Origin: Lachnospiraceae bacterium
Lineage (GTDB): Bacteria; Bacillota; Clostridia; Lachnospirales; Lachnospiraceae
NCBI GenBank assembly: GCA_021201665.1
Contig: JAJQEO010000038.1
Coordinates: forward strand, 62,001 to 126,000
Reading direction: 5' to 3'
DNA length: 64,000 bases
Under the pieces are notes generated by a model, which saw only the letters and a program-made list of their open reading frames with translations, was not told the DNA's origin and searched no databases. Both the position numbers and the translations under genes were made by a program. This document shows, in pieces, positions 9,165 through 53,854 of this stretch (positions are counted from its first letter, which is position 1; every line of letters starts with the position of its first letter).

Positions 9165-9929
9165 ATGAAAGATCCATATGAGGTTTTGGGTGTACCGAGG
9201 GGGGCTTCTGAGGAAGAAATCAAAAAGGCCTACCGTAAATTGAGCCGACAGTATCATCCGGACGCGAATATTAACAATCCAAACAAAGCACAGGCTGAGG
9301 AAAAATTCAAGGAAGTGCAGCAGGCCTACCAGCAGATCATGTATGATAAAGAGCATGGCGAGGGCAGCTACGAGGCAAAACAGAGCGGCGGACGGTCGTC
9401 TTCATCGTCTTCTTCCGGCAGCTATGGCCGGGGCTATGGCGGCTACGGCGGGTTCGGCGGCTATGGCAATTATAACGGCGGCTATGGGAATCGTGGCGGC
9501 AGCTCTTCCGGCAGCTATGGGTCTTCCTCCTCTGCGAATGATGACCCGCATCTGAGGGCGGCGGAGAACTATATCCGCAGCAATCATTACGATGAGGCGA
9601 TCAATGTGCTGAACGGGATTTCCAACCGCACCGCGCGCTGGTATTACTTAAGCGCGCTGGCCAATTCCGGGCGCGGCAACAATGTCCTGGCTCTCGACCA
9701 CGCGCAGAAGGCGGTACAGATGGAGCCGAACAATCTGCAGTACCGCCAGCTTCTCTCCGAGATGGAGGGCGGCGGACGGTGGTACCAGTCGATGGGCGAA
9801 GAGTATGGGAGTCCGATGTCATACGGCGGCAGTTATTGTACGAGACTGTGCATGGCCTGGCTGGTATGCAGCTGCTGCTGCGGAGGAGGAGGCGGTATGC
9901 GCATGGGAGTCCCGATCATGTGTTGCTAA
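9165..9929 (+). CDS. J-domain protein with Gly/Ser-rich linker, TPR-like domain and Cys-rich tail
   Basis: Probable Hsp70 co-chaperone. The J domain (about 1-68) carries the HPD motif in RQYHPDANI, which stimulates DnaK ATPase. A Gly/Tyr/Ser-rich linker (about 72-125) replaces the DnaJ zinc-finger region, so this is not DnaJ itself. A helical repeat domain resembling TPRs follows (about 128-205). The tail contains [10 protein letters not shown] and ends in MCC, which could bind metal or be lipidated. GGAGGA precedes the ATG at 9165; a longer TTG start is less likely. It is the last gene of the zinc-ribbon/DUF5685 operon and may recruit DnaK to their target. Confidence 0.88.
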
Positions 9930-9930
9930 A

Positions 9931-10095
9931 GTCCCGGGCAGCTGCAAAATGAACAGGCAGCCTTCGCGGATTTATCCGCAGAAAGCTGTATGCTCATTTT
10001 GGGATGGGCGGGACGCCCAATCAGTCGCAGATATTGGACGCGGACAGTGGACGATAGCCTGCGCAGCAGGCGGTCTGAAGTCCGCTGTCCGGAAA
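9931..10095 (-). repeat. large palindromic element, copy 1 (reverse orientation)
   Basis: First of three related elements; the others are at 46961 and 51677. Read on the minus strand it has a hairpin around GCCTGCTGCGCAGGC, then GGGCGTCCCGCCCATCCC, then a stem enclosing TGCGGATAAATCCGC. The outer ends, TCCGGACAGC and the complement of GCTGCCCGGGA, roughly pair with each other. It fills most of the 400-base gap between the J-domain gene and mscL, and no gene is seen there. Confidence 0.75.
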
Positions 10096-10329
10096 AATGG
10101 CAGCAAAATGAACATGCAGTTTGTGATAAGATATTTTGGAGAAAAAACGCCCGGCGGTGCATCTTATGTGCGCTTCGCCGGGCAAGTCTGTCAATATGAA
10201 TTTATCAAATATGAATCTGTAAAAGCGGTGTTTTCATTCAAAGCGGGTCGCGCCTGGGCTTTTGTGGTCTGCGATTCGCGCGTCAGGCGGCTGCAGGATG
10301 GGAAAGTTATTTCACGGCAGTTCCTTACA

Positions 10330-13848: not shown

Positions 13849-13875
13849 GTAACTGTTCAGTACCTTCACAGTTAC
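13849..13875 (+). repeat. GTAACTGT palindrome, copy 1
   Basis: A 27-base inverted repeat: GTAACTGT, an 11-base loop TCAGTACCTTC, then ACAGTTAC. Related copies lie at 13982, 43752 and 58791, all between genes. Confidence 0.85.
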
Positions 13876-13877
13876 GA

Positions 13878-13920
13878 AGGAAAAGCCCATTGAAAATCGC
13901 TTCGCGATGGGGCTTTTCCT
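13878..13920 (+). terminator. terminator-like hairpin after the yhaN-like gene
   Basis: GGAAAAGCCC pairs with GGGGCTTTTCC around a loop containing a second small hairpin (ATCGCTTCGCGAT). It lies about 50 bases after the stop codon. Confidence 0.6.
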
Positions 13921-13942
13921 CGTATGCTATATACTTTCATAC

Positions 13943-13967
13943 GTACCTCGCAGCAAGTGCGAGGTAC
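13943..13967 (+). repeat. GTACCTCGC palindrome, copy 1
   Basis: GTACCTCGC and GCGAGGTAC form a perfect 9-base stem around a 7-base loop. The same arms with a different loop occur, inverted, at 49487-49511, and the flanking TTTCATAC is shared as well. Confidence 0.8.
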
Positions 13968-13981
13968 TGTGCTGAGTAGTT

Positions 13982-14008
13982 ACAACTGTTCAGTACCTTC
14001 GCAGTTAC
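13982..14008 (+). repeat. GTAACTGT palindrome, copy 2 (degenerate left arm)
   Basis: ACAACTGTTCAGTACCTTCG followed by CAGTTAC matches copy 1 except for the left arm end. It is joined directly to the TATCCC element that follows, the same order as at 58791-58850. Confidence 0.75.
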
Positions 14009-46960: not shown

Positions 46961-47172
46961 AACAGTTCAGAACAGCAGGCCACAGACCGCTGCTGTTTGG
47001 AACAGTTCAGAACAGCAGGCCACAGACCGCCTTCTTCGAAGGCTATATGCCGCTTACGCGTCATATGTCTGAGGCTTGATGGGCGTCCCGCCCATCCCGA
47101 AATAAAAATACAGCCTTTAGCAGGTAAACCTGCAAAGTCTGTATTTTTATTTCGCTGCTGTTCTGGACTGTT
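46961..47172 (+). repeat. large palindromic element, copy 2
   Basis: Terminal inverted repeats AACAGTTCAGAACAGCAG (47001-47018) and CTGCTGTTCTGGACTGTT (47155-47172) bound the element. A 32-base direct duplication of the left end starts at 46959. Inside are hairpins around CCTTCTTCGAAGG, ATATGCCGCTTACGCGTCATAT, GATGGGCGTCCCGCCCATC and AATACAGCC with a nested GCAGGTAAACCTGC. It fills the 361-base gap between the efflux permease and GH3 genes; no gene is seen. Confidence 0.8.
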
Positions 47173-47308
47173 GTACCAAGTTTAGCAAAAACTGGCATGC
47201 GCAAAGCAATAAATACAGAGAACAAAAGAGCACTTTTTGTTATCTTTTAATAGAGATGACACAAGGGTGTTTTATGTTGCAATATTTTACAGGGAGGGAA
47301 ACGGCGCT

Positions 47309-49459
47309 ATGAGACGTGAAGAGGCTAGAAGAAGGGCTAAGGAGCTTGTTTCCAGGATGACAATCGAAGAAAAGGCCAGTCAGTTAAGGTATGATGCTCC
47401 CGCTGTTGAGCGGCTGGGGGTACCGGCTTATAACTGGTGGAACGAGGCGCTCCACGGCGTGGCGAGGGCCGGACAGGCGACGGTGTTTCCGCAGGCGATC
47501 GGCCTGGGGGCGACCTTTGACGCCGCCCTGGTTGGTGAGATTGCGGATGTGATCGCGACAGAGGGCCGCGCAAAATACAATGCATATTCAGCAAGAGGAG
47601 ACAGGGATATTTATAAGGGTTTGACCTTCTGGTCGCCGAACGTGAATATTTTCCGTGACCCGCGCTGGGGACGCGGACATGAGACATATGGAGAGGATCC
47701 CTGCCTGACCGGCACGCTGGGTGTGGCTTATGTAAAGGGACTGCAGGGGGATGGAGAGACGATGAAGGCGGCGGCCTGCGCGAAGCATTTCGCAGTGCAT
47801 TCCGGACCGGAGGCGATCCGCCATGAGTTCGACGCGGAGGCGTCCGCAAAGGATATGGAGGAGACCTACCTGGTCGCTTTTCAGAGGCTTGTGAAAGAGG
47901 CAAATGTGGAGGCCGTGATGGGTGCGTACAACCGTGTGAATGGGGAGCCGGCCTGCGCAAGCCGGGTACTGCAGGAAAAGCTTCGCGGCGAGTGGGGATT
48001 CGAAGGACATTTTGTCTCCGACTGCTGGGCGATCCGCGATTTTCATGAAAATCATCTCGTAACTAAAAACGCGACGGAATCCGCGGCACTCGCGGTCAAC
48101 ACCGGCTGTGACCTGAACTGCGGAAATACCTATCTTTATATTATGAAGGCATATCAGGAAGGTCTTGTGACGGAGGAGACCATCACGGAGGCGGCCGTCC
48201 GTCTCTTTACGACACGATATATGCTCGGATTGTTTGACGGCAGTGAGTACGATCAGATTTCTTATCTGGAGGTAGAGTCTCCGGAGCATCTGGCACTGGC
48301 GGAAAAAGCCGCCGAAGAGAGCTTTGTATTGCTGAAAAACAATGGAATCCTTCCTTTGCAAAAGGAAAAGCTGACGACCATCGGGCTGATCGGCCCGAAT
48401 ATGAACAGCCGCGCGGCGCTGATCGGAAATTATCATGGCACTGCTTCCCGCTATGTCACGATCCAGGAAGGCATCCAGGACTACCTCGGAGAAGATGTGC
48501 GCGTTCTGACGAGTGTGGGCTGTGATCTCTCCCGCGACCGCTCAGAGATGCTCTCCGTGGGGCGGGATCGCTTAAGTGAGGCGCGCACAGTGGCGGACTG
48601 CAGCGATGTTGTGATCCTCTGCGTGGGACTTGACGAGACTTTGGAAGGCGAGGAAGGCGATACCGGCAACCGCGACGCTTCCGGAGATAAGATGGATCTG
48701 CAGCTTCCTCAGGCGCAGCGCGAGCTGATGGAGACTGTCGCCGCATGCGGCAAGCCGACCGTACTTTTGCTGGCGGCGGGAAGCGATATTGACCTCAGTT
48801 ATGCGGCGGAGCATTTTGACGCAGTCATGGTATTGTGGTATCCGGGCTGCCAGGGAGGAAGCGCGGCCGCAAAGGTGCTGTTCGGGGACGTTTCCCCGTC
48901 AGGTAAGCTGCCGGTGACCTTTTACGAATCCCTGGAGGAGATGCCGGCATTCACTGATTATTCAATGCGGGGGCGGACCTACCGCTATATGTCCCAGAAA
49001 GCGCAGTTCCCGTTCGGATACGGACTCACCTATGGCAAGGTCGAGATGACGGGAGCGGAAATCCTGCCGGAGAAGGAACTGTTGAGTGAGGACTGCCTGG
49101 CGAAGAATCAAGATAGAGAAATGCCGGATTCCGGCGGCGTTACCATTCTGGCAGATGTTATAAACCGCGGCAGCTTCGATACACAGGAGGTTGTGCAGGT
49201 CTATGTAAAAAAAACAGACAGCCCGGACGCGGTGCCGAACCCGCAGCTGCAGGCATTTGCACGCATATTCCTCAAAGCAGGCGAAAGCGGACACGTAAAG
49301 CTGGTTCTTCCTCTGGAGGCGTTTACCGTGGTGGATGCGGAAGGAATGCGAAAAGAGCAGGGCGGCGTCTATGAGATTTATGTAGGCTGCAGCCAGCCGG
49401 ATGAGCGCAGCATCGAGCTTACTGGGATCCGCCCCATAAAGCTGCTGTACGAAAAATAG
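47309..49459 (+). CDS. GH3 family glycoside hydrolase (beta-xylosidase/beta-glucosidase type)
   Basis: Exo-acting beta-glycosidase. The barrel domain has WWNEALHGVARAG near the start, NVNIFRDPRWGRGHETYGEDP, and the nucleophile Asp238 in VSDCWAI. The alpha/beta sandwich follows (about 350-570) with VGLDETLEGEEGD, and a fibronectin-like C-terminal domain (about 620-716). The WWNEALHG and NIFRDPRWGR blocks favour the xylosidase/arabinofuranosidase side of GH3. There is no signal peptide, so it acts on imported oligosaccharides, possibly products of the GH115 step. AGGGAGGGAA precedes the ATG at 47309. Confidence 0.93.
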   Translation: MRREEARRRAKELVSRMTIEEKASQLRYDAPAVERLGVPAYNWWNEALHGVARAGQATVFPQAIGLGATFDAALVGEIADVIATEGRAKYNAYSARGDRDIYKGLTFWSPNVNIFRDPRWGRGHETYGEDPCLTGTLGVAYVKGLQGDGETMKAAACAKHFAVHSGPEAIRHEFDAEASAKDMEETYLVAFQRLVKEANVEAVMGAYNRVNGEPACASRVLQEKLRGEWGFEGHFVSDCWAIRDFHENHLVTKNATESAALAVNTGCDLNCGNTYLYIMKAYQEGLVTEETITEAAVRLFTTRYMLGLFDGSEYDQISYLEVESPEHLALAEKAAEESFVLLKNNGILPLQKEKLTTIGLIGPNMNSRAALIGNYHGTASRYVTIQEGIQDYLGEDVRVLTSVGCDLSRDRSEMLSVGRDRLSEARTVADCSDVVILCVGLDETLEGEEGDTGNRDASGDKMDLQLPQAQRELMETVAACGKPTVLLLAAGSDIDLSYAAEHFDAVMVLWYPGCQGGSAAAKVLFGDVSPSGKLPVTFYESLEEMPAFTDYSMRGRTYRYMSQKAQFPFGYGLTYGKVEMTGAEILPEKELLSEDCLAKNQDREMPDSGGVTILADVINRGSFDTQEVVQVYVKKTDSPDAVPNPQLQAFARIFLKAGESGHVKLVLPLEAFTVVDAEGMRKEQGGVYEIYVGCSQPDERSIELTGIRPIKLLYEK

Positions 49460-49486
49460 AAGATTTTGCAATAACCATTCAAGACA

Positions 49487-49511
49487 GTACCTCGCATTCA
49501 CTGCGAGGTAC
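49487..49511 (-). repeat. GTACCTCGC palindrome, copy 2
   Basis: GTACCTCGC, a 7-base loop, GCGAGGTAC; inverted relative to the copy at 13943. It is the first of a stack of hairpins after the GH3 gene. Confidence 0.8.
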
Positions 49512-49560
49512 GTATGAAAATGGACTTCTCATCTGCTGCGAAGACCGAATACAAGCATAT

Positions 49561-49662
49561 ATTATGAGAAGAAAACCGCTTCTCATAATCTCCAGAATCT
49601 GACGATTCTGTCGTTGACTTATCGGTTCCGAGTACGCAAGCGTCCTCTCCTTCCGATAAGTC
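49561..49662 (+). other. stack of three hairpins downstream of the GH3 gene
   Basis: ATTATGAGAAG pairs with CTTCTCATAAT (49561-49589, perfect 11 bases); CAGAATC pairs with GATTCTG (49593-49610); GACTTATCGG pairs with CCGATAAGTC (49616-49662). A terminator follows. The spacing is regular and there is no coding potential, so a structured RNA or a repeat cluster is possible. Confidence 0.65.
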
Positions 49663-49684
49663 ATATTATATTTTCTCATTACAG

Positions 49685-49712
49685 GAATCCTGCCCGGCAG
49701 GATTCTTTTTTA
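49685..49712 (+). terminator. rho-independent terminator after the GH3 gene
   Basis: GAATCCTGC, loop CCG, GCAGGATTC, then TTTTTTA. Confidence 0.9.
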
Positions 49713-49744
49713 CTCATTTTTTACATCATATTTTTTTCGTGCAT

Positions 49745-49788
49745 TTTTCACAATTTTTATTGATTTATTTGTGAAAATATATTATAGT
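49745..49788 (+). promoter_or_regulatory. promoter and overlapping inverted repeat upstream of the CdaR-type gene
   Basis: TTGATT (49760-49765), 17 bases, TATAGT (49783-49788). TTTTCACAA (49745-49753) and TTGTGAAAA (49769-49777) form a perfect inverted repeat spanning the -35 box and spacer, as expected for a repressor or autoregulator site. Confidence 0.65.
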
Positions 49789-49884
49789 AGTCCATGAATG
49801 CAGGATTGCTTTACGAAAGCTTTACAAAAGATAATAAAGGGCTGTTTTCAGGCACGGGCGTGTATGATAAGGAGGGTTTTACGA

Positions 49885-50973
49885 GTGATTTCAAATCAGG
49901 TTTTACAGACGACATTGGATGGGTTGAAGGCGATCAGCAGAGTGGATCTTTGCGTGCTGGATACAGAGGGCGTGATGTTGGCGACGACATTTTCTGAGGC
50001 GGAGGAATTCCGCGATTCCGTGCTGGCCTTTGCCGGCTCGCCCGCCGACAGTCAGGTCGTGTCAGGCTGTCAGTTTTTTAAGGTTTTTGATGACCATCAG
50101 CTGGAATATGTTCTTTTAGCGAATGGAAATAATAATGACGTCCACATGGTGGGGAGGATGGCTGCCTTCCAGCTGCAGAACCTCCTGGTAGCTTACAAGG
50201 AACGTTTCGACAAGGATAATTTTATTAAGAACCTGCTGCTGGACAATCTGCTGCTGGTTGATATTTATAACCGCGCGAAAAAGCTTCATATAGATACAGA
50301 GGCCCGCCGTGTCGTTTTCATCGTGGAGATTGACCATGAAAAGGAGATGGGACTTCTGGAAAATATCAGGGCTCTTTTTGGTACGCGTTCCGGCGATTTT
50401 ATTACGGCGGTCGATGAAAAGAGCATCATCGTGGTAAAGGAGCTTAGCGAGCAGGATACCTATGAGGATATGGACCGGACCGCGGAGATGATTCTCGACG
50501 CGCTCGGCGAGGAAAAGAAAAAGGAAGCTCTGATTGCTTACGGCACGATCGTCAGCGAGATCAAGGAGGTCTCGAGATCCTATAAGGAAGCACGTATGGC
50601 GCTCAATGTCGGCAAGATTTTCTTCGAGGAGCGCAAGGTAATCGCCTACAGCTCGCTCGGGATCGGACGGCTGATCTATCAGCTCCCGATTCCGCTGTGC
50701 AAGATGTTTATCAAGGAGATTTTCGACGGCAAGTCGCCGGAGGACTTTGACGAAGAAACCCTGACCACGATTAACAAATTCTTCGAAAACAGCCTGAATG
50801 TCTCGGAGACCTCCCGGCAGCTTTACATCCACAGGAATACGCTCGTCTACCGTCTCGACAAGCTCCAGAAGCAGACCGGACTTGACCTGCGCGTGTTTGA
50901 GGACGCGATCACGTTCAAGATTGCCCTGATGGTCGTCAAGTATATGAGCTATATGGAGACGCAGGAGTATTAG
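49885..50973 (+). CDS. CdaR/PucR-type transcriptional regulator
   Basis: Regulator with a C-terminal PucR-like helix-turn-helix (about 305-355: SLNVSETSRQLYIHRNTLVYRL). The N-terminal part (about 1-115) resembles a sugar-diacid or small-ligand sensing domain (AISRVDLCVLDTEGVML), and a GGDEF-like CdaR middle domain follows. A GTG at 49885 is preceded by AAGGAGGG and gives 362 residues; the frame is open further upstream but without a start signal. It may respond to uronates or other sugar acids, given the GH115 and GH3 genes in the window, but this is inference. Its promoter carries a perfect inverted repeat. Confidence 0.87.
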   Translation: MISNQVLQTTLDGLKAISRVDLCVLDTEGVMLATTFSEAEEFRDSVLAFAGSPADSQVVSGCQFFKVFDDHQLEYVLLANGNNNDVHMVGRMAAFQLQNLLVAYKERFDKDNFIKNLLLDNLLLVDIYNRAKKLHIDTEARRVVFIVEIDHEKEMGLLENIRALFGTRSGDFITAVDEKSIIVVKELSEQDTYEDMDRTAEMILDALGEEKKKEALIAYGTIVSEIKEVSRSYKEARMALNVGKIFFEERKVIAYSSLGIGRLIYQLPIPLCKMFIKEIFDGKSPEDFDEETLTTINKFFENSLNVSETSRQLYIHRNTLVYRLDKLQKQTGLDLRVFEDAITFKIALMVVKYMSYMETQEY

Positions 50974-51055
50974 TGGCTGAAACACTGGGTTTTTCGGCAT
51001 TTGAGTGTAAAAAATGCGTGCAGGGGCTGACAGGTCGGAAAGGAGAATAAAACGG

Positions 51056-51220
51056 ATGGAGGTAATTGAAAGCATGGGAATGACAGATTTACAGTTTAAG
51101 AGTTGGTTAAAACAGATCATCCGGGGCCTTGAAGGTGCAAAAGAAGAGCAGACGAAAGAAGAAACAGATAAGAGAATTAATGAGCTGCTGAAAGACTTGA
51201 AAGAAGATTTACAGGGCTGA
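51056..51220 (+). CDS. small protein of unknown function, WL motif (1)
   Basis: A 54-residue charged helical protein with the start MTDLQFKSWLKQIIRGLE inside it (Met9 is an alternative start). AAAGGAGAAT precedes the ATG at 51056. I do not recognise a family, but the MTDxQ-x-F-x-x-WL pattern is shared with the third tiny gene at 51432, so the two look like distant paralogues. The three small genes follow the CdaR-type gene in the same direction and may be one transcript. Confidence 0.6.
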   Translation: MEVIESMGMTDLQFKSWLKQIIRGLEGAKEEQTKEETDKRINELLKDLKEDLQG

Positions 51221-51269
51221 AATCTGCGGGGTTTGCTCCCCGCAATAGTACATGAGCTATGGGGGACTT

Positions 51270-51410
51270 ATGGAAGAGGAGTATGGCGAAGTTATCAGGG
51301 ATTTAGCTGAAGAGAACCAGACCAGAAAGATTCTCGAAATTCTGAATGAATGTTCAGATATGGAAGAGGCGAAGAGGAAAGCCAGAGAATTGCTTAAAAA
51401 TGAACGGTGA
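51270..51410 (+). CDS. small protein of unknown function (2)
   Basis: A 46-residue, very charged helical peptide (MEEEYGEVIRDLAEE, ending RKARELLKNER). GGGGGA lies three bases before the ATG; an in-frame ATG at 51252 would add six residues. It resembles C-terminal tails of Rpn-type nuclease/transposase proteins (TRKILEILNECSD), so it could be a remnant of one or a free-standing small protein. It sits between two other tiny genes. Confidence 0.5.
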   Translation: MEEEYGEVIRDLAEENQTRKILEILNECSDMEEAKRKARELLKNER

Positions 51411-51431
51411 AGTCAGAATGGGGGAAAGGAT

Positions 51432-51596
51432 ATGGTGACAACTATGACTGACAAACAGATGCAATTTATAGCTTGGCTGATTACTACAGCGACGGATAAA
51501 TGCAAAGACATGGATGAAGTCAGAGCCATGAACGAAGAGATCCGCAGGCATTCGGCAGGAATAAAAACGGACGAGGATAGTAATAAATCAGAATGA
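51432..51596 (+). CDS. small protein of unknown function, WL motif (3)
   Basis: A 54-residue protein beginning MVTTMTDKQMQFIAWLITT. The MTDKQMQF-x-AWL core matches MTDLQFKSWL in the first tiny gene. GGGGAAAGGAT precedes the ATG at 51432. The second half is acidic and basic without hydrophobic structure. Its role is unknown. It ends next to a repeat element. Confidence 0.55.
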   Translation: MVTTMTDKQMQFIAWLITTATDKCKDMDEVRAMNEEIRRHSAGIKTDEDSNKSE

Positions 51597-51603
51597 TTGT
51601 TTT

Positions 51604-51648
51604 GTGAAAAAACAGCCTTTAGCGGATAAATCCGCACAGGCTGTTTTT
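51604..51648 (+). repeat. extra hairpin of the large palindromic element
   Basis: AAAAAACAGCC and AGGCTGTTTTTT enclose GCGGATAAATCCGC, followed by TTTTGCTGTTG. It repeats the right-hand hairpin of the element that starts 30 bases later and could work as a terminator in either direction. Confidence 0.75.
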
Positions 51649-51676
51649 TCGTTTTGCTGTTGTTTTGCTTTCGGAC

Positions 51677-51889
51677 GTTCGAAACAACAGGCCGCAGGCC
51701 GCCTGCTTCGCAGGCTATATGCCGTTTGCGCGTCATATGCCTGTGGCTGATGGGGCGTTCTCTACGCTTCGCTTCGGTCGGTGCTGGACGAGCGCCACTG
51801 GCGCTCAGCACCCCATCCCAAAATGAAAATACAGCCTTTAGCGGATAAATCCGCACAGGCTGTTTTTTCATTTTGCTGCTGTTTCGAAC
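51677..51889 (+). repeat. large palindromic element, copy 3, with nested insert
   Basis: Terminal repeats GTTCGAAACAACAG (51677-51690) and CTGCTGTTTCGAAC (51876-51889) pair with one mismatch. Internal hairpins match copy 2: GCCTGCTTCGCAGGC, ATATGCCGTTTGCGCGTCATAT, and AATACAGCC with GCGGATAAATCCGC. The GATGGGGCG/CCCCATC hairpin is enlarged by about 50 bases that include CTACGCTTCGCTTCGGTCGG, a repeat also found inverted before pyk. The element ends at the 3' end of the ABC transporter gene. Confidence 0.8.
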
Positions 51890-51892
51890 TGG

Positions 51893-53854
51893 TTACTCAA
51901 ATTGTGATGCGTATAATTTGTAGTAGAACCCTTTCTGCGCGATCAGCTCGGAGTGGGTGCCCTGCTCGACGATGTTGCCCTGGTCGACGACGAGGATGCG
52001 GTCGGCGTTCTGGATCGTGGAGAGGCGGTGCGCGATGACGAAGCAGGTCTTGTCTGCCATCAGCTCGCGCATGGCGGCCTGGATCTGGCGCTCAGTGCCG
52101 GTGTCGACGTTGGAGGTGGCCTCGTCGAGGATCAGCATCCGCGCGTCATAAAGCATGGCGCGGGCGATGGTCAGAAGCTGCTTCTGACCTTTGGAAATGT
52201 TGCCTCCGTCCTCGCCGATGACGGTATCATAGCCGTCAGGCAGCAGCATGATGTAGTGATGGATTTTCGCAGCCTTCGCGACGGCGATGACCTCTTCCTT
52301 TGTGGCTCCTTCTTTTCCGTAAGCAATATTTTCGTAGATTGTCCCGTTGAACAGCCAGGTATCCTGCAGCACCATCGCGTAGGCGCGGCGCAGGCTGTCG
52401 CGGGTCACGTCGCGGATATCTTTCTCATCCACAAAAATCTGCCCTTCGTCCACATCGTAGAAACGCATCAGGAGATTGATGATCGTGGTCTTGCCTGCGC
52501 CGGTCGGGCCTACGATCGCGATCAGCTTTCCGGCGTCCGCATCCAGGCTGAAGTGATGAATGATGGTTTTCTGCGGATCATAGCCGAAGGAGACATCCTG
52601 AATCTTCACATCCCCGCGCACATCGGTCAGCACCGCCGCGTCTTCCCTGTCCGGGATTTCCTCCGTCTCATCGAGAATGTGAAATACACGCTCTGCCGCA
52701 GAAAGTGCGGAGAAAATCTGCGTGATCACGTTCGCAATTTCATTGATCGGCCCGGAAAATTTCCGCGAATACAGGACGAAGGAGGAGATGTGCTCCAGCG
52801 TCACAGTACCGCCCATATAGAGCAGAGAACCCAGGATGCCGATCAGTGCCAGGCCGAGGTTGTTGATGCTGCCGACGGTCGGCCCCATGGTCATGCCGTA
52901 ATAGTTTGCCTTGTAAAAGGATTCGGTGGCTTCCTGGTTATATTCCTCAAAATGGTTCAGGAAGGTGTCCTCCTGCGCATAGGCGAGGACGGTCTTCTGC
53001 CCGGAAAAAATTTCCTCTACATAACCATTCATGGCGCCGTAGGCGGCGGAGCGGCGGGAGAAAAGCGGACGGGTGATGCCGCTCATGTGCTTTGTATACC
53101 AGGTGGCCAGCGGGATTGTGACGGCCATGGTCAGTGTCAGAGGCGGGCTGATGTAGATCATCATCACCAGAGAGCCGACAACCGTGACCACGCTCGTCAT
53201 GATCTGCGTCAGATCCGTCGAAATACAGACGCAGGTGACGTCGATATCATAGGAAACATGGCTGATAATGTCGCCGGCCGCGTTCTGGTCAAAGTAGCGG
53301 ACGGGAAGCTTCATCAGCTTATTGAAGACGTCGGTGCGCATCTGCTGCCCGATTTTCCGCCCGACATTCATCATGATAAAGTTGATGAGCAGCGTGATCA
53401 GGGAGGAAGCCACATAAAAAATTAGCATCAGCTTCGCGTAATAAAGGACACGCTCAAAATTGACCTGTCCCACACCGGCTTCGGCTTCAGCGATCGCTTT
53501 TCCGGCGAGAATCGGGCCGGTCAGCGCCATCACGTTGCTCACCAGGCAGAGAAAGAGCGCGAGGATCATGATATATTTATAGTTTGCCGTATAGCGGACC
53601 AGCCGCAGAAGCGTGCCCTTGCGGTCCTTTGGCTTCGTGCTGCGCGTCTGCCCGGAGATGACGTTTTTATCACCTGTCTCACTGCCGGCGCCATGCTTTT
53701 CGGGCTTTTCGGAATTCCTTCCGGTTTTATGCGGCGCAGGATTGCTGCCGGTATTATGTTTTGCCTGACTGACCCCGGTATTATGCTCTTTGTTTGCCCG
53801 GGTTTCAGGATTTTGTATGCCGGAAACGTTGTCTTTTACCTGTGATTTACTCAT
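51893..53854 (-). CDS. ABC exporter half-transporter, consensus ATPase, with repeat-rich N-terminal tail
   Basis: One half of a heterodimeric export pump. About 85 N-terminal residues are low complexity, with HNTG/HKTG-type repeats. Six membrane helices follow (to about 390), then an ATPase domain: Walker A GPTGAGKTT, signature ISKGQKQ, and Walker B LILDEATSNVD with the catalytic Glu. It pairs with the gene upstream (15-base gap), whose ATPase site is non-canonical, as in BmrC/BmrD-like pumps. GGGGTGAG precedes the ATG. The MarR gene leads the operon. The substrate may be a drug or peptide; unknown. Confidence 0.93.
   Translation of the reverse strand: MSKSQVKDNVSGIQNPETRANKEHNTGVSQAKHNTGSNPAPHKTGRNSEKPEKHGAGSETGDKNVISGQTRSTKPKDRKGTLLRLVRYTANYKYIMILALFLCLVSNVMALTGPILAGKAIAEAEAGVGQVNFERVLYYAKLMLIFYVASSLITLLINFIMMNVGRKIGQQMRTDVFNKLMKLPVRYFDQNAAGDIISHVSYDIDVTCVCISTDLTQIMTSVVTVVGSLVMMIYISPPLTLTMAVTIPLATWYTKHMSGITRPLFSRRSAAYGAMNGYVEEIFSGQKTVLAYAQEDTFLNHFEEYNQEATESFYKANYYGMTMGPTVGSINNLGLALIGILGSLLYMGGTVTLEHISSFVLYSRKFSGPINEIANVITQIFSALSAAERVFHILDETEEIPDREDAAVLTDVRGDVKIQDVSFGYDPQKTIIHHFSLDADAGKLIAIVGPTGAGKTTIINLLMRFYDVDEGQIFVDEKDIRDVTRDSLRRAYAMVLQDTWLFNGTIYENIAYGKEGATKEEVIAVAKAAKIHHYIMLLPDGYDTVIGEDGGNISKGQKQLLTIARAMLYDARMLILDEATSNVDTGTERQIQAAMRELMADKTCFVIAHRLSTIQNADRILVVDQGNIVEQGTHSELIAQKGFYYKLYASQFE

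Follow-up and report, generated by a model that had tools for sequence, protein, structure and literature searches.

The 64,000-nucleotide stretch of a Lachnospiraceae bacterium genome considered here (contig JAJQEO010000038.1, positions 62,001 to 126,000, hereafter the window) carries three full-length copies of a short element belonging to a family of miniature inverted-repeat transposable elements (MITEs), the interior of which has three branches, always in the same order, on a closing stem, and keeps its helices paired even as their sequence drifts. We consider it likely that this element, having no gene of its own, is moved in trans by IS66-like transposases and that its interior folds on one strand in a manner that serves the element itself.

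Each window copy aligns from end to end (positions 1-176) with one covariance model, R1, which was built on the strand opposite to that used in an earlier sequence-only reading of this DNA and whose E-values are rough. That reading had described three related elements with a fixed order of internal hairpins; all three were found at or near where it had put them, with bounds slightly shifted by the model (Table 1), and the hairpin order is borne out in the window copies. Its GCCTGC/GCAGGC and ATATGCC/CATAT hairpins are the two carried by branch H1, and its GCGGATAAATCCGC stem is branch H3 in the other copies.

The case for mobility comes from the ends, GTAAC..GTTAC as terminal inverted repeats, and from the DNA beside them. 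Among 85 distinct copies the 34 with ends fitting the search patterns were scored for target duplications, and direct repeats of 8 bp lay exactly at the ends, perfect in eight copies and 7/8 alike in two more, compared with a perfect fraction of 0.0009 for mismatched flanks and 0-1 instances at ≥7/8 when the flanks were slid by 1-3 bases. The duplicated target is mostly an AT-rich 8 bp. Of 49 loci fetched from other genera, 13, which lie in five genomes (G075, G097, G102, G219 and G329), have matching ends flanked by 8/8 duplications. When 234 sequences were scanned for inverted end pairs with 7-8 of 8 flanking letters alike, there were 17 short elements (134-279 bp) and a single one of 2267 bp, and in the same scan the three window copies had no 8-bp duplication. 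There are 97 distinct full-length copies, 88 of them 168-182 bp long and 54 of exactly 176 bp, the commonest length, and from this shortness the element is taken to carry no transposase gene. Comparisons between species include occupied and unoccupied sites (L161 versus L151 and L104; L110 and L104 versus L151), with junctions that are not clean. With terminal inverted repeats, a fixed 8-bp duplication, short length and many copies, the family is a MITE.

The window copies fold well, with z values of −13.25, −9.25 and −6.97 relative to shuffled sequence when taken within the bounds of the sequence-only reading. The ends were said there to differ between copies and yet to pair within each copy, and this is so: out of 19 possible Watson-Crick pairs the copies make 16 (copy 1), 13 and 12 with their own ends, while set against the other rows in a 103-row alignment they give means of 11.9, 11.0 and 8.6. 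Similarly, where the left arm is divergent (25 copies), the inner 13 pairs have a score of 10.36 against the own right arm and of 7.0 against those of others.

A test of covariation had also been proposed, and its outcome is that pairing covaries beyond what shuffled and slid controls give. Fifty representatives were chosen at 93% identity and 47 aligned, L052, L170 and L064 being omitted as holders of another repeat, family B (see below). Over these 47 copies a structure of 71 pairs is paired in 89.4% of 3318 cells, against 81.6% after shuffling and 34-40% after sliding; 53 of the 71 pairs have changed on both sides (28.2 when shuffled), and cells with a double change number 290 (95.2 when shuffled). 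None of 500 shuffles attains any of five covariation measures, although the shuffles leave the relatedness among copies uncontrolled, and the slid controls fall far below but are disfavoured because the structure was read off one of the aligned sequences. Interior helices are paired in 91-99% of cells and the terminal stem, which covaries too, in 74.2%. Across the wider family, in an alignment (29 of 35 rows used, all full-length matches) that was fitted to R1 and so leans towards the model, at least three Watson-Crick types occur at 46 of 52 interior pairs, and some loop letters are retained (T in 27/28, T in 25/27, A in 24/29 and A in 22/24). Rfam has no family over its gathering cut-off in the window, and in 12 further loci gave only a T-box and a tRNA, both outside the elements. 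Selection on structure and not simple copying, as the sequence-only reading put it, is half right, in that structural constraint is supported while the 8-bp target duplications show that the family does spread by copying.

Table 1. Element copies, their parts and associated repeats in the window
Feature	Position	Strand	Remarks
Element copy 1, full length, 176 bp	46999..47174	- (R1 strand)	R1 match 193.5 bits
Copy 1 terminal stem, 5' arm on R1 strand	47156..47174	-	R1 positions 1-19
Copy 1 terminal stem, 3' arm on R1 strand	46999..47017	-	R1 positions 158-176
Copy 1 branch H3, long hairpin with GCAGG-TTTA-CCTGC tip	47099..47153	-	R1 positions 22-76
Copy 1 branch H2, GGGCGTCCCGCCC hairpin	47078..47096	-	R1 positions 79-97
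Copy 1 branch H1, stem carrying two hairpins	47019..47075	-	R1 positions 100-156
Tandem partial repeat of copy 1 left end	46961..46998		By eye
Full-length element copy 2, its branch H2 holding a family-B insert	51671..51895	-	R1 match 150.8 bits
Family-B repeat, 52 bp, inside copy 2	51761..51812	+	47/52 letters of typed consensus; homologues elsewhere
Partial copy, branch H3 only, adjoining copy 2	51606..51650	-	R1 positions 27-71, 39.5 bits
Full-length element copy 3, more divergent than copies 1 and 2	9925..10101	+	R1 match 126.8 bits
Sister element, 135 bp, other interior	13849..13983		Ends GTAACTGTTCAG / GTAACTACTCAG; flanks AACTGGTC / AACTGTTC, 7/8 alike

What kind of molecule folds is suggested by the mispairs. 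Over Watson-Crick consensus pairs of the interior in 103 copies read on the R1 strand (one interior pair with a T.T consensus omitted), G.T occurs 90 times and A.C 36 times, divided as 49 against 17 at A-T pairs and 41 against 19 at G-C pairs, and a sign test over the pairs gives 28 against 10 (p = 0.005). No such asymmetry exists in the terminal stem (G.T 111, A.C 106), and the family-wide counts are 32 against 13 in the interior and 19 against 16 in the terminal stem. Of 88 copies, 75 have their more stable fold on the R1 strand and 12 on the opposite one, and the R1 fold is also the more stable in 28 of 29 family-wide matches, these having been picked by a strand-specific model. Because the asymmetry holds at A-T and G-C pairs alike, a one-way C-to-T bias alone is inadequate to produce it. 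An interior G.T excess on one strand is what a folded RNA or other single strand inside the element should give, and a terminal stem without asymmetry is what duplex transposon ends should. We read this as two constraints, one apparently on duplex ends for the transposase and another on what would be a folded single strand in the interior, with RNA and single-stranded DNA not separated by the asymmetry. The covarying ends stressed in the sequence-only reading are real, but they are transposon terminal inverted repeats, and the single-strand signal sits in the interior helices. A mutational origin of arm matching, in which palindromes are self-corrected through template switching or intrastrand repair and their two arms change in step, would account for the matched changes of a terminal stem free of asymmetry, but gives no reason for the interior G.T excess in both classes of pair, and we find it quite unlikely.

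Where the fold is kept can be asked of orthologous copies, with orthology taken from flank matches (L107 judged by eye). In seven such comparisons none of 25 changed interior pairs had changed to another Watson-Crick pair on both sides, whereas between non-orthologous copies of like divergence about 24% had, and in a wider set of eight comparisons, with all 71 pairs and paralogous own-genome loci included, one of 56 changed pairs was double. Because double changes occur between insertions and not between orthologues, it seems to be in the spreading lineage that the fold is preserved, rather than where copies have inserted, and the host probably does not maintain it site by site, few as the orthologues are. 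Self-correction should act on inserted copies too, so that the near absence of double changes there is a second point against it.

A host function, to which the sequence-only reading pointed, would make the elements RNA structures of 3' untranslated regions or terminators at gene ends. All copies are said in that account to lie at 3' ends of genes, and no such preference was seen. With genes called by a simple caller of our own, 80 copies have a called gene on both sides (13 more lack one on one side), and they occupy 59 tandem, 12 convergent and 9 divergent gaps, near the background of 426, 80 and 76, with 30 copies oriented one way and 29 the other in the tandem gaps. The copies are indeed intergenic, none of the 80 falling inside a called gene, and the arms of branch H3 are A- and U-rich in the window copies, in favour of such a role; yet U-rich arms are by eye absent from several other genera, no scan for terminators having been made, and the lack of preference for 3' ends or orientation, together with orthologues lacking double compensation in the interior, makes a host function very improbable. 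The random orientation with respect to genes is also odd for an RNA made by read-through, and the G.T asymmetry suits single-stranded DNA as well as RNA, so a working fold in a replication or transposition intermediate deserves some weight. Against it the 8-bp duplications and the DDE transposases of IS66 type suggest a duplex transposition, the mechanism being inferred, and we regard single-stranded DNA as the unlikely form, though by no means a negligible one.

The most likely source of transposase lies in IS66-like elements, and mobilisation by these is inferred because of the likeness of ends and the equal length of duplication. The 2267-bp element mentioned above, L212, has an 8/8 duplication (ACTATTTT) and GTTACTATTCAC ends and encodes a protein of 520 amino acids, which matches PF03050 (DDE_Tnp_IS66) with 41 bits (cut-off 23.1) and the NCBIfam IS66 model with 140 bits, below the cut-off of 180; related proteins were found in 5 of the 47 genus genomes and, family-wide, in 23 of 299. 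Two further complete elements with related ends and 8/8 duplications are L287, of 2358 bp with a PF03050 match of 90.4 bits, and L295, of 1984 bp with an interrupted frame and a weak match; the L295 frame compared with the protein models was an antisense one, so that its missing match there carries no weight. L282 and L286 have ends alike at 16/16 and no duplication (2/8 and 4/8), and in L283 an IS66 transposase that passes the NCBIfam cut-off (222.6 bits) lies between TTCAGAACCCCC ends. On the side of the short elements, the MITE-like matches L275, L279 and L270 resemble L212 in their GTTACTATTCAC or GTTACTGTTCAC ends. In genome G075, where the MITEs begin GTAACAGTTCAGCCATGCGGC (L261) and the eight fetched copies include five with 8/8 and two with 7/8 duplications, an end GTAACAGTTCAGCCTTGCGGC, near-identical over 21 bases, precedes a frame cut by the end of the contig. 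The genome of the window itself has, near the end of its contig C43, a fragment of an IS66-like transposase (L235) that shares 85% identity with the L212 transposase across 235 residues and carries a GTTACTATTCACAGC end.

Several candidates were rejected. Classic IS66 does not seem to be the direct partner, with PF03050 in 21 of the 47 genus genomes and no tracking of copy number, and in the PF03050 loci of the genus no GTAA..TTAC pair with at least 7/8 flanking letters alike was found. In G010 two ends spanning 3.1 kb (L214) have no duplication (4/8) and enclose long frames that resemble host genes by eye. Nor is the fold part of the autonomous elements, R1 giving no match at E ≤ 0.1 in 21 IS66-like loci.

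On the account that we favour, insertion of the MITE duplicates 8 bp of target DNA, IS66-like transposases encoded elsewhere would most likely bind its ends (GTAAC..TTCAG) and move it, its interior would fold as RNA, or less likely as single-stranded DNA, and so aid the spread or the tolerance of a new element, and inserted copies seem then to gather single changes without compensation. A number of observations weigh against this account. The cells of the strand test are not independent, and the orthologue test is small, with one triplet sharing a site. No clean empty site was found, and the joined flanks of L156, searched over 47 genomes, gave one-sided matches only, in 11 genomes. Among the IS66-like elements none was found that is complete, has GTAAC..TTCAG on both sides and is flanked by a duplication; L212, L287 and L295, complete as they are, begin GTTAC, and L283 has one GTAAC and one GTATC end and no duplication. 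The G075 frame is only weakly like the L212 protein (E = 1.1e-5) and matches nothing in Pfam or NCBIfam. IS66 genes also fail to track copy number, G010, G015 and G018-G021 having 24-33 element matches each and no PF03050, though draft assemblies lose multi-copy insertion sequences. The want of a complete partner with exact ends, and the copy-rich genomes free of PF03050, would be explained if another kind of transposase moved the MITE, but only IS66-like elements turned up with related ends and 8-bp duplications, no search of other transposase families having been made, and such a mover appears rather unlikely. IS66-like elements are most likely the partner, on evidence of ends and duplications that is good but indirect. 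Going further, the interior may be a functional RNA of one strand that is needed for mobilisation by IS66-like transposases and dispensable to the autonomous elements, with its fold kept across the Lachnospiraceae, a tentative idea and on present sequence comparisons an unlikely one.

Further copies in the genome and its relatives, which the sequence-only reading had proposed to look for, are numerous by DNA search and covariance model alike. In the own genome (4.7 Mb, 121 contigs) a DNA search with copy 2 gives 49 matches, many of them to the nested 52-bp family-B repeat, and R1, with 150 of 1433 candidates scored, finds 13 element-spanning places among 19 rows, the others being partial or shadows on the opposite strand. 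A search with another copy matches 36 of 47 genomes of the genus, the own included, and since 17 candidates were scored in many genomes the copy counts per genome are lower bounds. With nine candidates scored per genome, R1 is found in 44 of 299 genomes and 43 of 298 genera of a Lachnospiraceae sample and, of 299 in a phylum sample, in the own genome only. An exact-pattern scan of a collection of species genomes gave at least 110 stretches, and the 80 listed among them are, by title, all from metagenome-assembled genomes of Lachnospiraceae or Clostridiales. Three own-genome loci (L009, L010 and L014, on contigs C105, C94 and C106), two of which hold family B, have similar flanks on both sides and so were duplicated as part of a larger segment.

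Other repeats are found alongside. Family B, palindromic and 52 bp long with CCACTGG as its loop, is scattered over the own genome (L009, L010, L017-L033) and nests in copies of the element, in itself (L030, L033) and, by eye, in an apparent coding frame (L018). A sister group (the window element at 13849-13983, L216, L217, L218 and L090) has GTAACTGTTCAG-type ends around a different, also palindromic interior, L218 being 134 bp long with an 8/8 duplication. Minimal elements of 57 bp (L215, 1068-1124) and 65 bp (L224, 1040-1104) are barely more than two ends and have no clear duplication.

The family was not found in the literature searched, where thin coverage of subscription journals makes this a weak negative. 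IS66 ends begin GTAA, and GTWAC ends with 8-bp duplications are common to the MITE and to L212, L287 and L295. For two captured IS66 elements a published table gives duplications of 8 bp (PMC3281130). Unlike IS66, the MITE has no gene and has a conserved three-branch interior, which the 21 IS66-like loci lack. The bcr1-bcr3 repeats of the Bacillus cereus group are, as described, likewise intergenic, of high copy number, MITE-like and foldable (PMC3446304, PMC2267715), but belong to another host group and are tied in their mobility to a TTTAT motif (PMC6542083) where the MITE has 8-bp duplications. The Efa-1 stem-loop repeats of Enterococcus faecalis, at 163 bp, with many copies and strong folding, are like the MITE in a description that gives no IS66 link (PMC2267715). 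REP palindromes are extragenic palindromic repeats as the MITE is, but measure 20-40 bp (PMC3733652), whereas the MITE commonly has 176 bp and target duplications. We class the family as a MITE whose ends are of IS66 type and whose interior conserves a fold of one strand, and the kinds nearest to it are IS66 elements and bcr1-type repeats.

The usual view is that a MITE requires nothing beyond its ends. In this family the interior fold is kept on one strand in many genera, while inserted copies seem to decay uncompensated, so that selection on a mobile lineage can be separated from selection by the host, and a large class of Lachnospiraceae repeats without an Rfam family now has a covariance model. 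The testable claim is that of a bacterial MITE with a working RNA or single-strand part, and if the RNA reading of the one strand is true the element would be an RNA-dependent parasite of a DDE insertion sequence, with most positions of its helices having changed letters.

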